A program made the translations under genes and the position numbers. From positions 1 through 50,421 of IMG/VR virus record IMGVR_UViG_3300032288_002769: 50,421 bases of DNA. One strand, written 5' to 3'. Position 1 is the stretch's first letter. Every line of letters starts with the position of its first letter. The notes beneath the pieces were generated by a model. The model was given only the letters and a program-made list of their open reading frames with translations. It had not been told where the DNA came from and ran no database searches. Shown one piece after another: positions 3,249 to 13,789 of this stretch. Source of the stretch: a virus.

Positions 3249-4045
3249 TTGGCATGCTTGAAAGCAAAGTCAGCAGCCTTCATTAAATGTTCTGGTGACT
3301 TATGTACCATATCAGCAAACTTTTTCTTGTTCTCGTCATTCAATGCTTTATGCACTTGAGTAATCGCTGATGCGGTGAAATGATCTACTTTACGGGTATG
3401 ACCTGACGCAAACTTAACAGACTTTGCCTGTTTATCATTCACAATCTTATGAAGTGTATCCATTACTGCTTCTTCTAACTCAACTTGTTCAGTAGTTTGA
3501 ATGTCTTTAAACCCTTCATCAGAAAATGGAATGCTAAAATGTTTTTTCAGTCTATCATTATAGTATAAAGCAATCTTTGTATTGTCTGGGTATAAACGAA
3601 TCGCTTTTCTTTTTAGTAACAACACAAAAGGTGGTTCGTTGTGAATGTTTTCTTCAGTCAATTCAATGTCTTCTGCTAACTTACCATCAAGAACATCATT
3701 TGCACCAATTTTAATTTTGTGTGTTTTAATTTTTCTACCAGTAACATCTAATTTAAAATCCGCAGCAGGAATAGAATCCGCTGCTTCACTTACTGCTCTG
3801 CGAGACTGTTGAAATATTTGTTTATTATTAGTAAGCAAATCTACCATCTTAACAAACATATTTTGAATGATGGCACGATCAGCAGAAGAAAACTTTGGAT
3901 TATCTTCTGACATTCTATCTAAAATTTTGTGTAGTCTTTGCATCTGTGCTTTATTGGCAAGACCAGCACGAACAAGTGCATCAAACTTTGTATAGTCTGA
4001 TTTTTCTTCTTCTACAATAGATTTGAATTCTAATAAAGATTTCAT
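3245..4045 (-). CDS. Head-cluster protein of unknown function, possible core/virion protein
   Basis: A 266-aa, mostly helical protein between the gp67-like and gp68-like genes, overlapping both by 4 nt. The N-terminal third (residues 15-90) is helical with the stretch ALVRAGLANKAQMQRLHKIL. The middle (residues 100-185) looks like a small mixed alpha/beta domain. The C-terminal 70 residues contain FTASAITQVHKALNDENKKKF and end KAADFAFKHAK. I recall this kind of C-terminus (TASAI, then LN..N..KF, then DFA..K) in proteins encoded near the prohead genes of other T4-like phages. The embedded position implies co-production with the core proteins and suggests a prohead core or head-associated role, but no activity can be assigned. 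Confidence 0.8.
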   Translation of the reverse strand: MKSLLEFKSIVEEEKSDYTKFDALVRAGLANKAQMQRLHKILDRMSEDNPKFSSADRAIIQNMFVKMVDLLTNNKQIFQQSRRAVSEAADSIPAADFKLDVTGRKIKTHKIKIGANDVLDGKLAEDIELTEENIHNEPPFVLLLKRKAIRLYPDNTKIALYYNDRLKKHFSIPFSDEGFKDIQTTEQVELEEAVMDTLHKIVNDKQAKSVKFASGHTRKVDHFTASAITQVHKALNDENKKKFADMVHKSPEHLMKAADFAFKHAK

Positions 4046-4230
4046 GCTTCTGTAGTTTCTTCCTGTTCAGGTTCTTCTACTTCAACACCATTAAAAAGTG
4101 TAGAAGCAATCTCTTGTTTTTTAGCATCAAGTGATTCGAATGCTCTTGACGAAAGTAATTCATCCAAAGCTGTTCTAGCTTGGTCACCCTCGCCTGCTGC
4201 TACTAAATCAATAAATTGTTTCGTATCCAT
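4042..4230 (-). CDS. 67: Prohead core protein, gp67-like
   Basis: A 62-aa acidic protein encoded immediately after the portal gene, as T4 gene 67 is. Residues 1-48 form one helical module beginning MDTKQFIDLVAAGEGDQART. The last 12 residues are almost all Glu, Pro and Thr (VEEPEQEETTEA), an acidic tail comparable in character to the acidic end of T4 gp67. T4 gp67 is a major prohead core component, cut by gp21. The ATG has an AGGAG ribosome binding site, and an AATAAATA late-promoter-like octamer lies 18 nt upstream, inside the end of gp20. The assignment rests on position, size and charge; the sequence is too short for certainty. Confidence 0.78.
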   Translation of the reverse strand: MDTKQFIDLVAAGEGDQARTALDELLSSRAFESLDAKKQEIASTLFNGVEVEEPEQEETTEA

Positions 4231-8267: not shown

Positions 8268-9902
8268 TTAGAATGTTGAGGGCATGTAACCTCTTGATTT
8301 TGCAAGAGTCCATATATCTTCGCCATCAAACATTTTTTCTTCTTCTTGGCCTGTAACAAGTTCTCCTACAGGCAACATTTCTTCTTCTATCATCAAGTTT
8401 TGCTCTTCGACCATTTTCTTTCTGATATCTGAGTCAGTCAAATCTCGAAAGAATGGCTGAGCAGATAACCAAGAGAAAATAACTAGAGTCATAACTATAT
8501 CGTCATTATTTCCTTCTTCTGCTTTATAAGAATCTCCCACTCTCACAAAGGTGTTCAATTCTGCTATTGTGTCGAAATCATATAGTAAAATTTTATCGTT
8601 CTCTATTAATGCCTTCAAATTAGCGCAACCAATCTTTTTGACTGGAGTGGTAGTCTTAACACCAAAAGTAGTTGTTTTTTTATAGCCAGAAGAGACTCTT
8701 TGACCTTTAGCCGAATGTCTCTCTAATCGGAAAATATTTTCATACTCCAAATCATAATGTAAAATATCTACAACCTGTTGACCGACATTATTTGTTTCCA
8801 ACAATATATAAGCGTTGTTGTATTTAGACGCTATAGAATATATAACATTAGGAAATACCAAAGGTGCTATATTATTATTACGATATTTGGCAACATGTTT
8901 ATACGGTATTTCGGTCACATCAACAATAGAGATTGCTGAGTAATCTCGGTTCACGCCTTCGGCACAATCTACGGTAGCAATATATGTATGATTTTTGATT
9001 GGCTGTTCATAGACCATCAGTCCCGTATCGTTGGACTCAATAGGTTGTCTGAAAACTAAAGTCTTTAGCTTGTATCCTGGTATCAGAGTAGCCGAAGAAC
9101 CTATAAATTCAGTTTCAAATTCTTGTCTGAATTGCTCTTCGCTAGTGTTACGGATTGTTTCTTCTTTCCATTTCTCATCTCTTCCTGGTACCATGGACCA
9201 ATGAACTTCAAATGGTACATATAACGAACGCTTTTCTACAGCATCCATCCACATCTTATAGAACATATTCAAACCGTAAGGTGTGGAAACGATAATAACT
9301 TTTGTGGTTTTACCTGATGAGATAACTGGATATGTAGATTGGAAGAAATCTTGAGCCATATTGTGTGGTACGAAAGCAAATTCATCTAAGAAAATCAAAT
9401 TGTAAGTACCACCACGAACGCCTGATGCGCTTGTTGCAAATGCAGAAATCTCAGATTTGTTTTCTAGTACAATGTTACCTTTGTTCCATTCTAAGATACC
9501 CTGTTGCATCCACATAGGCAAATATTCATAGGCATATTGTATACGACCTAGAATATCTCTAGCGAGATCGCCTTTGTTAGCGAGAATAGCTATTTTATAG
9601 TCATCTTGGAATAGAACCGACCATAACATATAACCGACAACCGTAGTTGTTTTACCAACTTGTCGTGGCATTTTACATATTGAAAAACGGTTAATATGAA
9701 AACCATGGATCATATCTTCTTGAAATGGCCACATATTAAACGGAACAAGACCTAAGTCAACATTGACAATCTTTACATAGGTCTTAATAAAGTATACTGG
9801 GTCTTTGATGCACTTAGTAATTTCTACTAATTGCTCCTGCGTATACTCAATTTTTATGCCAGGTTTCTTTAGGCTTGAATTGCCTTGATAACCCTCATTC
9901 AT
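8268..9902 (-). CDS. 17: Large terminase subunit gp17 (ATPase and nuclease)
   Basis: A 544-aa DNA packaging motor (T4 gp17 is 610 aa). The N-terminal ATPase carries Walker A MPRQVGKTT (residues 78-86, Lys84), Walker B LIFLDE (169-174, Asp173 and Glu174) and the coupling motif STPYG (206-210). The C-terminal RNase H-like nuclease shows the three acidic motifs: Asp312 in VDCAEG, Glu369 in LLETNNVGQQ, and Asp467/468 in NNDDIVM. All catalytic residues appear intact, so the headful nuclease and translocase should be active. The start at 9902 overlaps the Dps gene by 4 nt (ATGA), so translation of the motor is probably coupled to that gene. It follows gp16 except for the Dps insertion. Confidence 0.98.
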   Translation of the reverse strand: MNEGYQGNSSLKKPGIKIEYTQEQLVEITKCIKDPVYFIKTYVKIVNVDLGLVPFNMWPFQEDMIHGFHINRFSICKMPRQVGKTTTVVGYMLWSVLFQDDYKIAILANKGDLARDILGRIQYAYEYLPMWMQQGILEWNKGNIVLENKSEISAFATSASGVRGGTYNLIFLDEFAFVPHNMAQDFFQSTYPVISSGKTTKVIIVSTPYGLNMFYKMWMDAVEKRSLYVPFEVHWSMVPGRDEKWKEETIRNTSEEQFRQEFETEFIGSSATLIPGYKLKTLVFRQPIESNDTGLMVYEQPIKNHTYIATVDCAEGVNRDYSAISIVDVTEIPYKHVAKYRNNNIAPLVFPNVIYSIASKYNNAYILLETNNVGQQVVDILHYDLEYENIFRLERHSAKGQRVSSGYKKTTTFGVKTTTPVKKIGCANLKALIENDKILLYDFDTIAELNTFVRVGDSYKAEEGNNDDIVMTLVIFSWLSAQPFFRDLTDSDIRKKMVEEQNLMIEEEMLPVGELVTGQEEEKMFDGEDIWTLAKSRGYMPSTF

Positions 9903-10333
9903 TTAGTAATGCTTCTTAACATCCATGCGTGTTTTTGGTGAGCACCCAAAAGGTCTTGTAGAAAGTTACCAACTGCTGGCTCATTAGCATTTTCAGCAGC
10001 AACAATACCTGCACGGAGATGAATAATATATCTGTCATTATCTGCTCTCAATTGATTCATCATTTCTAAAGGAGATGGAATATTTAATTCCTCATCGAGA
10101 TCAGCAAGTTCTAAGAATCTTGTCATAGAACCTGGGGCATAAGCATTTAATTTTCTTAAGTGCTCTGCGATATCATCAGTTTGTGCCCATATAGAATTAT
10201 ATAATCCATCTAAGAAACTGTGATATTGTGGGAAGTTTGAACCCTCAATGTTCCAATGAAAATTGTGTGTCTTCAAATACAAAGCAAAGTTTGTAGCTAG
10301 AATCACTTTCAGTTGTTGAATAAGTTGTTCCAT
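9899..10333 (-). CDS. Dps-family ferritin-like protein encoded between terminase subunits
   Basis: A 144-aa protein of the Dps/ferritin-like family (bacterial Dps is usually 150-170 aa). Dps forms dodecamers that oxidise and store iron using peroxide and often coat DNA. The diagnostic block is THNFHWNIEGSNFPQYHSF at residues 22-40. The ferroxidase ligands of E. coli Dps (H51, H63, D67, D78, E82) correspond to H26, H38, D42, D53 and E57 here, with identical spacing (12, 4, 11, 4). This indicates a functional iron centre. The usual Lys-rich N-terminal DNA-binding tail is absent: the protein starts MEQLIQQLKV directly in helix A. It lies 1 nt after gp16 and overlaps gp17 by 4 nt, so it is co-translated with the packaging motor. 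Possible roles are protection of DNA from oxidative damage, iron withholding, or a virion or packaging part; which of these is unknown. Confidence 0.93.
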   Translation of the reverse strand: MEQLIQQLKVILATNFALYLKTHNFHWNIEGSNFPQYHSFLDGLYNSIWAQTDDIAEHLRKLNAYAPGSMTRFLELADLDEELNIPSPLEMMNQLRADNDRYIIHLRAGIVAAENANEPAVGNFLQDLLGAHQKHAWMLRSITK

Positions 10334-10334
10334 T

Positions 10335-10718
10335 TTATCCTACCTGTTTAATTTGTTTAATCAAATCTCTTGTTGACCCTACAAATACTGCTTTATCCAC
10401 ATTGATAGTAGCAGGTACTTGTGGTTGCAAATCTTTTCTTTTCTTTTGTAGGTCCAATAGGTCTTTGTTCATTTCACCCAATTGCTTTAGCATATTCGAT
10501 GCTACTTCATATGCTCTAGGATGCTCAGACTCTTTAGCTACATGCAAAATATTATCGACAGCAATATTCCCTTTCATCACAAGTTCACGAATGTTTTTTC
10601 TGGCAAAAGCAAAATCAGTTTCAATATCATCAGAAGAATTATCAATAACTACCGGAGATTTTACATCCTCAATAGGTTCAATATCAAAAATCTCCGATAG
10701 CTTTTCATTTATCTTCAT
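10335..10718 (-). CDS. 16: Small terminase subunit gp16
   Basis: A 127-aa small terminase (T4 gp16 is 164 aa). It forms a ring that recognises and regulates packaging of phage DNA by gp17. The helical core around residues 38-95 contains AKESEHPRAYEVASNMLKQLG and LLDLQKKRKDL, which matches the small-terminase pattern of T4-like marine phages, as does the end VFVGSTRDLIKQIKQ. The N-terminal 35 residues are acidic and probably disordered. It starts 3 nt after the fibre-like gene's stop and ends 1 nt before the Dps gene. I am confident because of the characteristic HPRAYEV motif and its place just before gp17 apart from the Dps insertion. Confidence 0.92.
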   Translation of the reverse strand: MKINEKLSEIFDIEPIEDVKSPVVIDNSSDDIETDFAFARKNIRELVMKGNIAVDNILHVAKESEHPRAYEVASNMLKQLGEMNKDLLDLQKKRKDLQPQVPATINVDKAVFVGSTRDLIKQIKQVG

Positions 10719-10721
10719 AGA

Positions 10722-11780
10722 TTATACGAATGCTAATTGCTTCAGTTGGCTACCATCAGAAATAAACATCTTGCCTACACCAGTAGCATGACTTGTTACA
10801 ACCATAGTGCCTGCTGGTAGAGAAGTAGAATCTAAATTGGTAACTGCTGTTGTTAGAGATTTAATTGTCAACCCGTTATACAATCTAATATCAGCTTGAG
10901 TGTATGCTGTATTTGATGATGCAATATCTGTAGCTTTAAACTTCAAGTCTAGACCGTACTTGAAACCACTAGCGGGAGTTGTGTTAACCATAGCAACACC
11001 AAATGCCGAGTTAGCGGTAGTTAATCCACCATCACCATCTAGATAAGCCATAACCGCAGAATCAGCAGTTGTTGTTTGGTCACCAATCACACCTAGAACA
11101 CCAGCTTTTGGAAATAGGCTTGGGCTTGTGCCTGTGATGTTATAGCTACCTGTTACACCGGTAATGTAGTTTCGTGTCGCTGTTAAGTTTGCACCAGTAA
11201 CTCTACCTCTAACTGCTTGAGAACTAGCGGGATCTTGATAATCGCTACTTCCAAAAGCTGCACTGATTGTTAATGTTGATGCTAGACCTACTGTAGCACC
11301 ACCACCAGTTGCTGATGCAGTATCTGTAATAATCTGTTTAACAGTAAATGTATTCGTATTTGCAGCACTAACTAAACTATTTGCCTTTTCAAAAGCAGCA
11401 TTGGCTTGAATAAAAGCAGAAATGCTCGAACTGGAACTGGAGTTTGCAACAACAAAAGCCGCATTGGCTTGAATAAAAGCACCATTGGCATATATCGCAG
11501 CAGAGTTAGCAACATAGCTTGGTGTGTTAGCTTGAATAAATGCTGCATTGGCCTGAATAAATGCCGTAGCTGCCACATTTGATGTGGTGTTAGCAAAACT
11601 GAAAGCTGAGTTGGCATGAGTAAAAGCTAGATTTGGTCTTAGCGAAGTGTAATTATTAAGTGTGCTCAACGCAAGACTATAAGTTACACCACTAGCGGTA
11701 TTTGAAATTGGAAATATAATTTTAGAAGGAATATTGCTAATCGCAATTGTCTCATCTAATTGTGAAATCCTTTTGGTCAT
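10722..11780 (-). CDS. Fibre-like structural protein between gp15 and gp16
   Basis: A 352-aa protein with three parts. The N-terminal 45 residues (TKRISQLDETIAISN, then FPISNTASGVTYSLALSTLNNY) resemble short attachment domains of phage fibres. Residues about 50-140 carry AF..AN. heptads such as AFIQANAAFIQAN, shared with the fibre genes 10-20 kb away. The C-terminal half (residues 145-352) is a beta-rich region ending in TSHATGVGKMFISDGSQLKQL, a type of ending I recognise from fibre and neck-associated proteins. It sits outside the main fibre cluster, between tail completion gp15 and small terminase gp16. A whisker- or collar-like fibre is a reasonable guess given the neck genes next to it, but is not shown. 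It could also be an ordinary side fibre. Confidence 0.85.
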   Translation of the reverse strand: MTKRISQLDETIAISNIPSKIIFPISNTASGVTYSLALSTLNNYTSLRPNLAFTHANSAFSFANTTSNVAATAFIQANAAFIQANTPSYVANSAAIYANGAFIQANAAFVVANSSSSSSISAFIQANAAFEKANSLVSAANTNTFTVKQIITDTASATGGGATVGLASTLTISAAFGSSDYQDPASSQAVRGRVTGANLTATRNYITGVTGSYNITGTSPSLFPKAGVLGVIGDQTTTADSAVMAYLDGDGGLTTANSAFGVAMVNTTPASGFKYGLDLKFKATDIASSNTAYTQADIRLYNGLTIKSLTTAVTNLDSTSLPAGTMVVTSHATGVGKMFISDGSQLKQLAFV

Positions 11781-11804: not shown

Positions 11805-12899
11805 TTATGTTAGTAAGTTTTCTGAAGCTTCTGTTAGAATGTTCTCATCTTCTTCTGTAGTAATCTCAATGTATGCATCATTTATAGTTAACGATTGATC
11901 TTCTAAAGTCGATGGGAATTCTTTAATATCCGTATTATAACCGTAACTTGTATCTGGAGTCGCTGAAGTTGGATCAGGGATCGTAACTAAAGAAACTGTT
12001 TTAATTGGGTTCAAATCAACAGTATTTATAGTATAACTTGCCCCGGAGTAGTCTCCCGTTAGAACTTCATTCTCTTCTAGCAGGTCGGTTAAATTAGAAA
12101 CTACTAGTGATCCTGTACTGTTATTGGCAAAATAAGTAACGGTACCTGTTTTTCCTTTATTCGCTACTCTAACGATTTCTCCTGTTGTATATACGCCCCT
12201 GCCTGAATTTGAGTCAATATAAACTTGTTGAGAAGTTGTAGCCCTTGTGTCGGTGTAGATATTCGTATTTGCCTGCTCAATAACGGAAGATGCACTAACC
12301 GCAGGGAAAATATATCCTCTAGCAGTAAACGATAGATTCCATATAATTAATCTGGTACTCATCATATCGCCCTCATAATCAACCTCAGGAGTTACTGAGT
12401 TGAGCATAATTGGCATGTCATATTTTCTACCGATGGACGGAATAAAATCAATCGTCACGGTAAAATCTGGCGTAAAGAATGGCAAAATTTGCTCTAGTAT
12501 TTGAGTACCATCTTCGGTATTTCTAACATATATTGATAAATCGAAATCGAAGGTATAAGGTATCGGAGCGTATTGTCCTTTAACTGTACCATTGGAAGAA
12601 TCAAATCCATAATTCTTATTTACAGTAATGAATTTTCTAGATGAATCATAAGCAATACCTGAAAGATCAAAAGATATTCTTGGCACATAGGCATTAATAG
12701 ATTTTGTCAGGGTTGGATCAGAAGTTAATCGAGTAATATATTTTTCTTTAGCACCATACGAAATAGGAACTTTATTTTTTTCATAGGCTTTAGAACCATC
12801 TTTACTATAGCGAATTAATGTGATATCATTAAAGATAGAACCAAAAGCTACAATAACTTTTCGTATTGTTCTATTATAGAAGTGGTCATTGCCTAACAT
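11805..12899 (-). CDS. 15: Tail sheath stabiliser / completion protein gp15
   Basis: A 364-aa tail terminator (T4 gp15 is 272 aa). It caps the sheath end of the finished tail and docks it to the neck. The first 205 residues hold the family core: FYNRTIRKVIVAFGSIFNDI (residues 7-26), VPISYGAKEKYITRL, then PRISFDLSGIAYDSSRK and TIDFIPSIGRKYDMPIMLNS. From residue 225 on there is a C-terminal extension with the pattern GEIVRVANKGKTGTV followed by a GDYSGASYTI strand, a beta module also found in gp8 and the gp7-position protein here, and an acidic tail (EITTEEDENILTEASENLL). It overlaps gp14 by 1 nt (TAATG). Identification of the core is firm; the extension's role is unknown. Confidence 0.93.
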   Translation of the reverse strand: MLGNDHFYNRTIRKVIVAFGSIFNDITLIRYSKDGSKAYEKNKVPISYGAKEKYITRLTSDPTLTKSINAYVPRISFDLSGIAYDSSRKFITVNKNYGFDSSNGTVKGQYAPIPYTFDFDLSIYVRNTEDGTQILEQILPFFTPDFTVTIDFIPSIGRKYDMPIMLNSVTPEVDYEGDMMSTRLIIWNLSFTARGYIFPAVSASSVIEQANTNIYTDTRATTSQQVYIDSNSGRGVYTTGEIVRVANKGKTGTVTYFANNSTGSLVVSNLTDLLEENEVLTGDYSGASYTINTVDLNPIKTVSLVTIPDPTSATPDTSYGYNTDIKEFPSTLEDQSLTINDAYIEITTEEDENILTEASENLLT

Positions 12900-13789
12900 T
12901 ATGCATCACCAAATGGGTTATGTTCTGTAAAATCTATGATTAAATCCGATTCTGTTTGCAGTCTTACATTGTCACTGATATCTTCAAACACATCATTACC
13001 CACTTGAGTCATTTCATTAATTACGGCGACATTTGCTATATTGCTTGAAGCACGACAATAAACATTACCTGATGTAAATGTTCCTTGGACACGAACAACT
13101 TGCAATTCAGTGTTAGCTTTGAAAGAGTAAACTACGGCTCTTGTATCAGATTCTAAGAATGAAGTGCCTTGGTATATTTCATCGTAAGGATAAAGTGTTC
13201 CTACATTATTTGCACCAAGAGTAAATGTGGTTCTTCTATACTCACTGAATGCTTGATCGTCAATTTCTCGTATACCGGTAGAAATAATTTCTTCAGAGAA
13301 TACAAACTGTTTAAGTTTTAAAGCGTACACATAAACATTACCGCCACGACCACGACCTAATGTGTAGAACATAGCTTGATCGTTTTCGTGCTCTACGAAT
13401 GTAATTTCAAAAAAGTTTTGCACTAGAGGCACATATACTAAATCACCTTCTCTAGGTCTTAACAAAGGAACGGTTGCTGCGAATCGGCGGCGTGATAAAA
13501 GCAAAGTAACTTCATCACGAATCTCTAAACCAAATTTAGAAATGAAGTCTCCTTCGCCATCCATACCACTAACATTTTCAAGATACATTTCAATAGGATA
13601 AGCATTACGATATTGTTTAAGTGTATCTTCACCGTAAAGCATATCTTCGGAATCTCTAGATGATCTTGAAATATAATAAACATCCATGCCATGAATCTGC
13701 ATAGCTTCAATTACCAAATCTTCTACCAGTAACTGCTCACTGGTAATTTGGTGTTGTGGAAAGTTATTGAAATAAAAATTAGTAGGCAT
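12899..13789 (-). CDS. 14: Neck protein gp14
   Basis: A 296-aa neck protein (T4 gp14 is 256 aa). With gp13 it forms the head-to-tail connector that closes the packaged head and receives the tail. The start MPTNFYFNNFPQHQITSEQLLVEDL, quoted here as NFYFNNF and EQLLVEDLVIEAMQIHG, is the family signature, followed by DVYYISR (residues 36-42) and LYGEDTLKQY. It overlaps gp13 upstream and gp15 downstream by 1 nt each, so the three are probably translated as a coupled set in nearly equal amounts. Residues 200-255 hold a beta-rich segment that may be a lineage-specific insertion. Identification is firm. Confidence 0.95.
   Translation of the reverse strand: MPTNFYFNNFPQHQITSEQLLVEDLVIEAMQIHGMDVYYISRSSRDSEDMLYGEDTLKQYRNAYPIEMYLENVSGMDGEGDFISKFGLEIRDEVTLLLSRRRFAATVPLLRPREGDLVYVPLVQNFFEITFVEHENDQAMFYTLGRGRGGNVYVYALKLKQFVFSEEIISTGIREIDDQAFSEYRRTTFTLGANNVGTLYPYDEIYQGTSFLESDTRAVVYSFKANTELQVVRVQGTFTSGNVYCRASSNIANVAVINEMTQVGNDVFEDISDNVRLQTESDLIIDFTEHNPFGDA

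Follow-up and report, generated by a model that had tools for sequence, protein, structure and literature searches.

A Dps-type mini-ferritin gene between the two terminase genes of an uncultured T4-like phage clade, with a possible role at the phage head

In phage T4, genes 16 and 17 are adjacent. What is a gene for an iron-oxidising protein doing between gp16 and gp17, the genes for the small and large terminase subunits, in a T4-like relative? The question is raised by the window analysed here, a stretch of 50,421 nt of viral DNA, for which a sequence-only reading had proposed a Dps ferroxidase gene in exactly this place. Matches to Pfam, PHROGs and PDB sequences bear out the Dps assignment, and family matches identify both neighbours (Table 1). 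The coordinates proposed for the gene were correct, but its strand had not been mentioned: the ORF starts with ATG on the minus strand, and the plus-strand frame across the same positions is riddled with stops. The tight junctions described on either side are visible in the coordinates. The gp16 ORF ends, stop codon included, at 10335, leaving a gap of 1 nt before the dps start at 10333, and dps overlaps gp17 by 4 nt (ATGA, 9899-9902). Upstream of dps lie the head-closure gene, the sheath-stabiliser gene, a 352-aa ORF of no assigned kind and gp16; downstream are gp17, gp18, gp19 and gp20. The 352-aa ORF (10722-11780, between the sheath stabiliser and gp16) contains repeated AN-A-F motifs; it gave no family matches, and relatives mostly lack it at that place. 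No late-promoter-like site was found directly before dps in the window. ATAAATA occurs 14 times in the window (1-50421), a total below chance, with 13 of the 14 sites on the coding (minus) strand. Several of these sites lie shortly ahead of gene starts, as T4-like late promoters would.

Table 1. Features of the dps locus and metal site in the window, with examples of protease-Dps chains from other phage loci (positions of the latter are those of the named locus).
Feature	Position	Strand	Evidence or remark
dps, 144-aa phage Dps mini-ferritin	9899..10333	minus	PF00210 (Ferritin) E = 3.8e-24; phrog_3636 E = 8e-34; AF2; Foldseek
gp16, terminase small subunit	10335..10718	minus	PF11053 E = 2.8e-13; phrog_445
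gp17, terminase large subunit	8268..9902	minus	PF03237 + PF17289; phrog_2
Tail sheath stabiliser gene, same operon, upstream of dps	11805..12899	minus	phrog_227 E = 3e-71
Head closure gene, same operon, upstream of dps	12899..13789	minus	phrog_460 E = 3e-61
H26 codon, metal ligand	10256..10258	minus	H37 of PaDps by mapping
H38 codon, metal ligand	10220..10222	minus	H49 of PaDps by mapping
D42 codon, variable fifth position	10208..10210	minus	N/D/G/K/E/A among relatives
D53 codon, metal ligand	10175..10177	minus	D64 of PaDps by mapping
E57 codon, metal ligand	10163..10165	minus	E68 of PaDps by mapping
Protease-Dps chain (L407-L460 set)	L434:4095-6152		
Protease-Dps chain (L407-L460 set)	L426:4134-6149		
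Protease-Dps chain (L407-L460 set)	L408:717-5936		

The product is a genuine Dps-type mini-ferritin. It matches 61 PDB sequences (phmmer), of which the top ones are all Dps, and structure prediction, proposed earlier as a check, agrees. The AlphaFold2 single-chain model, built with 36 relatives, has a pLDDT of 97 and the Dps order of helices (2-28, 34-49/52-61, 70-76, 88-115 and 119-143), forming a ferritin-like four-helix bundle with a short BC helix and no fifth (E) helix. In a Foldseek search of the PDB, the best 50 matches of this model are all Dps-family structures.

Is the metal site intact? The sequence-only reading saw five residues matching the ferroxidase ligands of Escherichia coli Dps. 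Residues H26, H38, D42, D53 and E57 are present with gaps of 12, 4, 11 and 4, a spacing motif that arises in 5 of 200,000 shuffles of the protein, and the phmmer alignment to E. coli Dps (1dps; query 18-72 on chain 43-97, offset 25) puts them on residues 51, 63, 67, 78 and 82. Residues and spacing therefore stand, but D42 is not conserved in the family: across 104 distinct relatives this position varies (N 41, D 34, G 25, K 2, E 1, A 1) and is neither D nor E in 69, while the other four residues are invariant. A canonical five-ligand site is not supported, conservation being limited to four. In Pseudomonas aeruginosa Dps (PaDps; PA0962, PDB 8ff9), H37 and D64 bind iron 1, H49 binds iron 2, and E68 takes part in both sites (PMC10002758). 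Because these ligands map to the four invariant residues (Table 1), the site in the window Dps is complete by the PaDps standard; the variable position 42 maps to PaDps E53, which is absent from that protein's listed ligands. The acidic D127 of the window Dps aligns with the iron-binding Q138 of the PaDps pore and is D or E in 98 of the 104 relatives. PaDps oxidises Fe(II) with H2O2, not O2 (PMC10002758). The window protein is very probably a functional Dps-type ferroxidase.

Coating of DNA in the E. coli style is not expected, because the window Dps is acidic (pI 5.5) and begins directly with helix A. The Lys/Arg-rich N-terminal tail of DNA-coating E. coli-type Dps is absent here, as had been remarked from the letters: a single K/R occurs among the first 15 residues. 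Acidity is family-wide, with net charges of -4 to -10 and pI values of 4.8-5.9. A scan of the whole window for a capsid-targeting-like N-terminal pattern did not find one on the Dps; the sole match was the ORF at 4042-4230.

How widespread is this arrangement? Close relatives of the window Dps are encoded on 312 IMG/VR stretches. Both gp16 and gp17 flank dps in 76 of the best 80 dps loci, the remaining 4 showing one only, and gp16-dps-gp17 recurs in 68 of 72 further loci that were found with other patterns and share source contigs in part with the best-80 set. A set of 80 loci drawn by gp17 rather than by dps provides a fair test of slot occupancy: dps is present in 68 of the 72 that leave room for it upstream. 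This gp17-anchored count supplies the survey of 16-17 intergenic genes that the sequence-only reading had asked for, and the gp16-dps-gp17 order is near-fixed in one uncultured T4-like clade. Loci without dps are nested among those with it and are therefore probably losses. The gene is under purifying selection: median dN/dS is 0.17 for dps, 0.07 for gp17 and 0.27 for gp16, and median pairwise identity is 71% for dps against 57% for gp16. Among the Dps-bearing phage records matched, no cultured phage with gp16-dps-gp17 was found; three inspected cultured-phage Dps records, of different kinds, all have Dps elsewhere, and no Dps in the matched cultured-phage records is more than 33% identical to the window Dps over its length. 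Lake samples (Kiruna, Erken) are named by two record titles.

The order of the three genes outlasts the exchange of its parts. A gp17 allele only 42-49% identical to that of the window, on a long branch, accompanies dps at 74-81% identity. This divergent allele sits in otherwise similar loci (L003, L006, L049, L061, L064 and L288), in which the large terminase was likely replaced by recombination. In 6 loci, dispersed across the gp17 tree, the 16-17 slot is filled by a distant dps lineage. The slot thus keeps a Dps through swaps, since either gp17 or dps is replaced and the order is kept. These exchanges divide the earlier idea of a Dps made with the packaging motor: a Dps with a complete ligand set in a packaging operon survives, but a specific partnership with the gp17 motor is weakened and now unlikely, because a distant gp17 allele was swapped in and dps stayed very similar. 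Nor need the 16-17 position alone mean a packaging function, because in related cyano- and pelagiphages this gap is a variable insertion slot holding other small ORFs.

Other genes of these contigs deserve mention. An ORF inserted between dps and gp17 (L130:2915-3493) is a homing endonuclease by PHROG match, and one in the same place at L156:3011-3427 resembles it by eye. At L048:6440-8611 and L472:2360-5413, gp17 is broken at Walker A, with intein-like halves on either side of an endonuclease-like ORF; this has the look of gene fracture by a split intein, at the same site in two different phages. Rubrerythrin, a peroxide-scavenging di-iron protein, is encoded on 2 of 11 large contigs with T4-like dps (L471:2580-3017 and G003:C1:74857-75195).

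Among 84,980 bacterial and archaeal genomes, the window Dps finds its best match at 56% identity, followed by Oceanimonas at 47%. The former (L160, CAIWHI010000271.1) belongs to a Bacteroidetes MAG by binning but is a contig of a T4-like phage; its gp16 and gp17 are adjacent without dps, which is encoded elsewhere, among virion genes. Recent capture of dps from a known host is not supported, the top match being itself phage and the next standing at 47%. Both this contig and L187 (CAIOZF010000052.1) are phage DNA filed in bacterial MAGs, and their "bacterial" Dps are phage Dps. In a tree built with care and freed of long branches, a 100/100 branch divides 41 phage Dps from 23 bacterial Dps plus PaDps, with the bacterial Dps drawn by similarity to the phage query and the order inside the phage side mostly unresolved. 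The window Dps groups with other phage Dps, several of which are encoded beside head genes.

A Foldseek search of predicted viral structures (BFVD) revealed long chains that contain a Dps fold, and three of these carry the name "Prohead protease". The Dps of L187, which is a phage contig from a lake MAG, then served as seed for an IMG/VR search that yielded 77 loci, 33 fused and 44 stand-alone. In L187 itself the Dps gene follows that of the major head protein at a distance of about 130 nt, and likewise in L394 and L395; in L406 it is flanked by head-morphogenesis genes on one side and the major head protein gene on the other. In the 33 fused loci (24 distinct domains) Dps is housed within an ORF of 379-2200 aa, in which Pfam and PHROGs place a Peptidase_S78/head-maturation protease towards the N-terminus, then Dps and then an acidic C-terminal part. 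The S78-type protease part is shared by 28 of the 33 (phmmer), and one Dps belongs to a chain of 1740 aa that also gave portal and protease matches. In 24 of the fused loci the ORF that follows is the major head protein gene, at a spacing of 3-7 nt in 21, overlapping in two and 123 nt away in one; a portal gene is nearby in most. All four ligands are kept in every Dps of the set, fused (33/33) and stand-alone (44/44). The full-length model of a protease-Dps fusion is too poor for use (pLDDT 57, 13 sequences).

Head proteases and scaffold chains of tailed phages become built into the prohead. A Dps domain housed in such a chain must therefore enter the prohead, and with its metal site kept it most likely works there as an active mini-ferritin. 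The window dps is encoded among packaging genes, and other phage members are fused to or placed beside head genes; as the fusions belong to other phages and to a different part of the phage Dps tree, they transfer to the window phage by analogy. Around the stand-alone genes, 31 of 287 ORFs have capsid-targeting-like N-termini, against 2.4 expected and a maximum of 9 in 200 shuffles, a count that is a lead only since the pattern (M-x-x-F-x-x-F-[LIV]-x-E-like, resembling T4 internal proteins) was chosen post hoc. The loci concerned are L435, L438 and L463-L469. A search of the stand-alone Dps contigs L435-L469, which are fragments, for a T4-like gp17 gave no match.

From these observations a mechanism can be proposed. 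The phage-specific Dps would assemble into a 12-subunit mini-ferritin. At the two-fold interface between subunits, H26, H38, D53 and E57 would make up the di-iron sites; there Fe(II) would be oxidised with hydrogen peroxide, and the protein would store the ferric iron. It would be read, presumably late, together with the neck, gp16 and gp17 genes of a head-completion and packaging operon. Acting around the head, and perhaps inside it, the protein could clear Fe(II) and peroxide, sparing the genome Fenton damage while it is packaged and possibly also once the particle is free. Such protection would work by chemistry and not by coating of DNA, in keeping with an acidic protein that has no basic tail. 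The locus is best explained by a late, head-associated mini-ferritin that keeps the surroundings of the packaged genome clear of Fe(II) and peroxide, a reading to which we give a probability of about 55%. The head association is argued from the fused Dps, which enters the prohead with its metal site, and from the window Dps, which lies on the same side of the tree and in a packaging operon. The link to packaging or the virion, first raised from the window alone, gains support from the near-fixation at the 16-17 slot and from the protease-Dps fusions beside capsid genes elsewhere. The window Dps, with neither a targeting peptide nor a protease fusion, may reside within the mature virion, at somewhat under even odds. 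Equally tentative is the wider suggestion that Dps was taken up by several tailed-phage lineages as an internal protein of the head, where it would detoxify iron and peroxide and extend the survival of the particle. Capsid-borne Dps might, with the same reserve, be delivered in two ways: from a separate late gene of the packaging operon, as in this phage, or as a domain of the protease-scaffold chain.

The main rival is defence of the host against reactive oxygen species (ROS). Ferritin and other ROS genes occur in >10% of freshwater phages and were interpreted in this way (Kavagutti et al., 2019; PMC6802176), and Dps could lower Fe(II) and peroxide so that the infected host survives oxidative stress from light or grazers until lysis, the late operon being merely a tolerant slot. 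That related phages place unrelated small ORFs in the 16-17 gap suits this explanation, as does the rubrerythrin on some contigs of the clade, and the Dps of cyanophages falls in a cluster with porin and PstS-like genes. However, an early, metabolic-gene setting would be expected, as in cyanophages, and here dps is nearly fixed in a packaging operon; host protection also leaves the head protease-Dps fusions beside capsid genes unexplained. It fits the cyanophage Dps lineage better than the window Dps, for which we consider it unlikely, though a serious contender.

Two further readings retain the biochemistry and change its purpose. Dps proteins bind and store iron, and with all four ligands kept, and an acidic residue at the PaDps Q138 pore position (D127) in nearly all relatives, the protein could serve iron handling rather than DNA protection, through late storage or withholding of iron or through iron supplied to or carried for the particle (Ferrojan-type). 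No iron-uptake genes were seen beside dps, and PaDps works with H2O2 and not with O2, which makes it a peroxide scavenger (PMC10002758); we regard this reading as improbable. PaDps, the closest solved relative, also cuts DNA in vitro with divalent cations (PMC10002758), and with dps placed between terminase genes one could imagine a nuclease-like accessory that would nick or trim DNA, either while host DNA is broken down or in packaging. Several points speak against it: no mechanism or residues are assigned to the PaDps cleavage, gp17 has a nuclease domain of its own (PF17289), the exchange of gp17 leaves dps unaffected and the Dps surface is acidic, so that such a role is highly improbable. 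A head-associated ferroxidase is preferred to all three.

Free phage particles cannot repair their own DNA, and one way in which virions decay is through peroxide or photochemical damage. A ferroxidase made with the head or built into it would, if this reading is true, be a particle-borne antioxidant. To our knowledge none has been described for any virus, and no report was found in the full-text literature searched, the coverage of which is partial. If a capsid-borne antioxidant were demonstrated, it would be genuinely surprising, and the "ferritin" matches of environmental phages might then also include head proteins, not just metabolic genes that help the host. The predictions are Dps peptides in virions, peroxide-resistant particles and iron in heads. 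Nothing on gp16-dps-gp17 or on protease-Dps chains came up in literature searches that paired phage Dps with the terminase, the virion or the prohead protease. What is new here is the fixed gp16-dps-gp17 unit and the protease-Dps chains, which are undiscussed in the searched records and papers; phage Dps itself had already been annotated.

How does the window Dps compare with systems already known? PaDps is its top PDB match (TM 0.94, rmsd 1.1), sharing 33% identity, the same four ligands and a gap-free alignment across the helical core. Of three mapped residues in the PaDps tyrosine network two are lost, Y27 being F16 and Y81 being M70 in the window Dps, and Y19 is retained; PaDps is a bacterial chromosomal gene product from the opposite side of the Dps tree. 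The E. coli ligands H51, H63, D67, D78 and E82 are all matched, but the D67 position is variable in the phage family and the window protein is acidic and without the basic N-terminal tail. The Dps of cyanophage S-SRM01 (292 IMG/VR relatives) is likewise phage-borne and 144 aa long, and is 33% identical; in contrast, it is encoded beside a porin gene, outside the packaging operon, and forms a separate branch (support 100). In this common cyanophage lineage (L082, L314-L393; for example L377:905-4435) the porin neighbour recurs, and L377 also has a gene for a PstS-like periplasmic binding protein. Salmonella phage 7-11 and its kin are also tailed phages with a Dps-family gene, but theirs lies among nucleotide-metabolism genes and its product is 27-30% identical. 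The protease-Dps chains (BFVD A0A6J7WPK9, A0A6J7XDU5 and A0A6J7WIS1; L407-L460) share the four ligands and the phage side of the tree, and differ in that the domain sits in a protease/scaffold-like chain of phages with S78-type heads, not T4-like ones, whereas the window Dps stands alone. T4 itself has the same two terminase genes in the same order, and in the window phage dps separates them.
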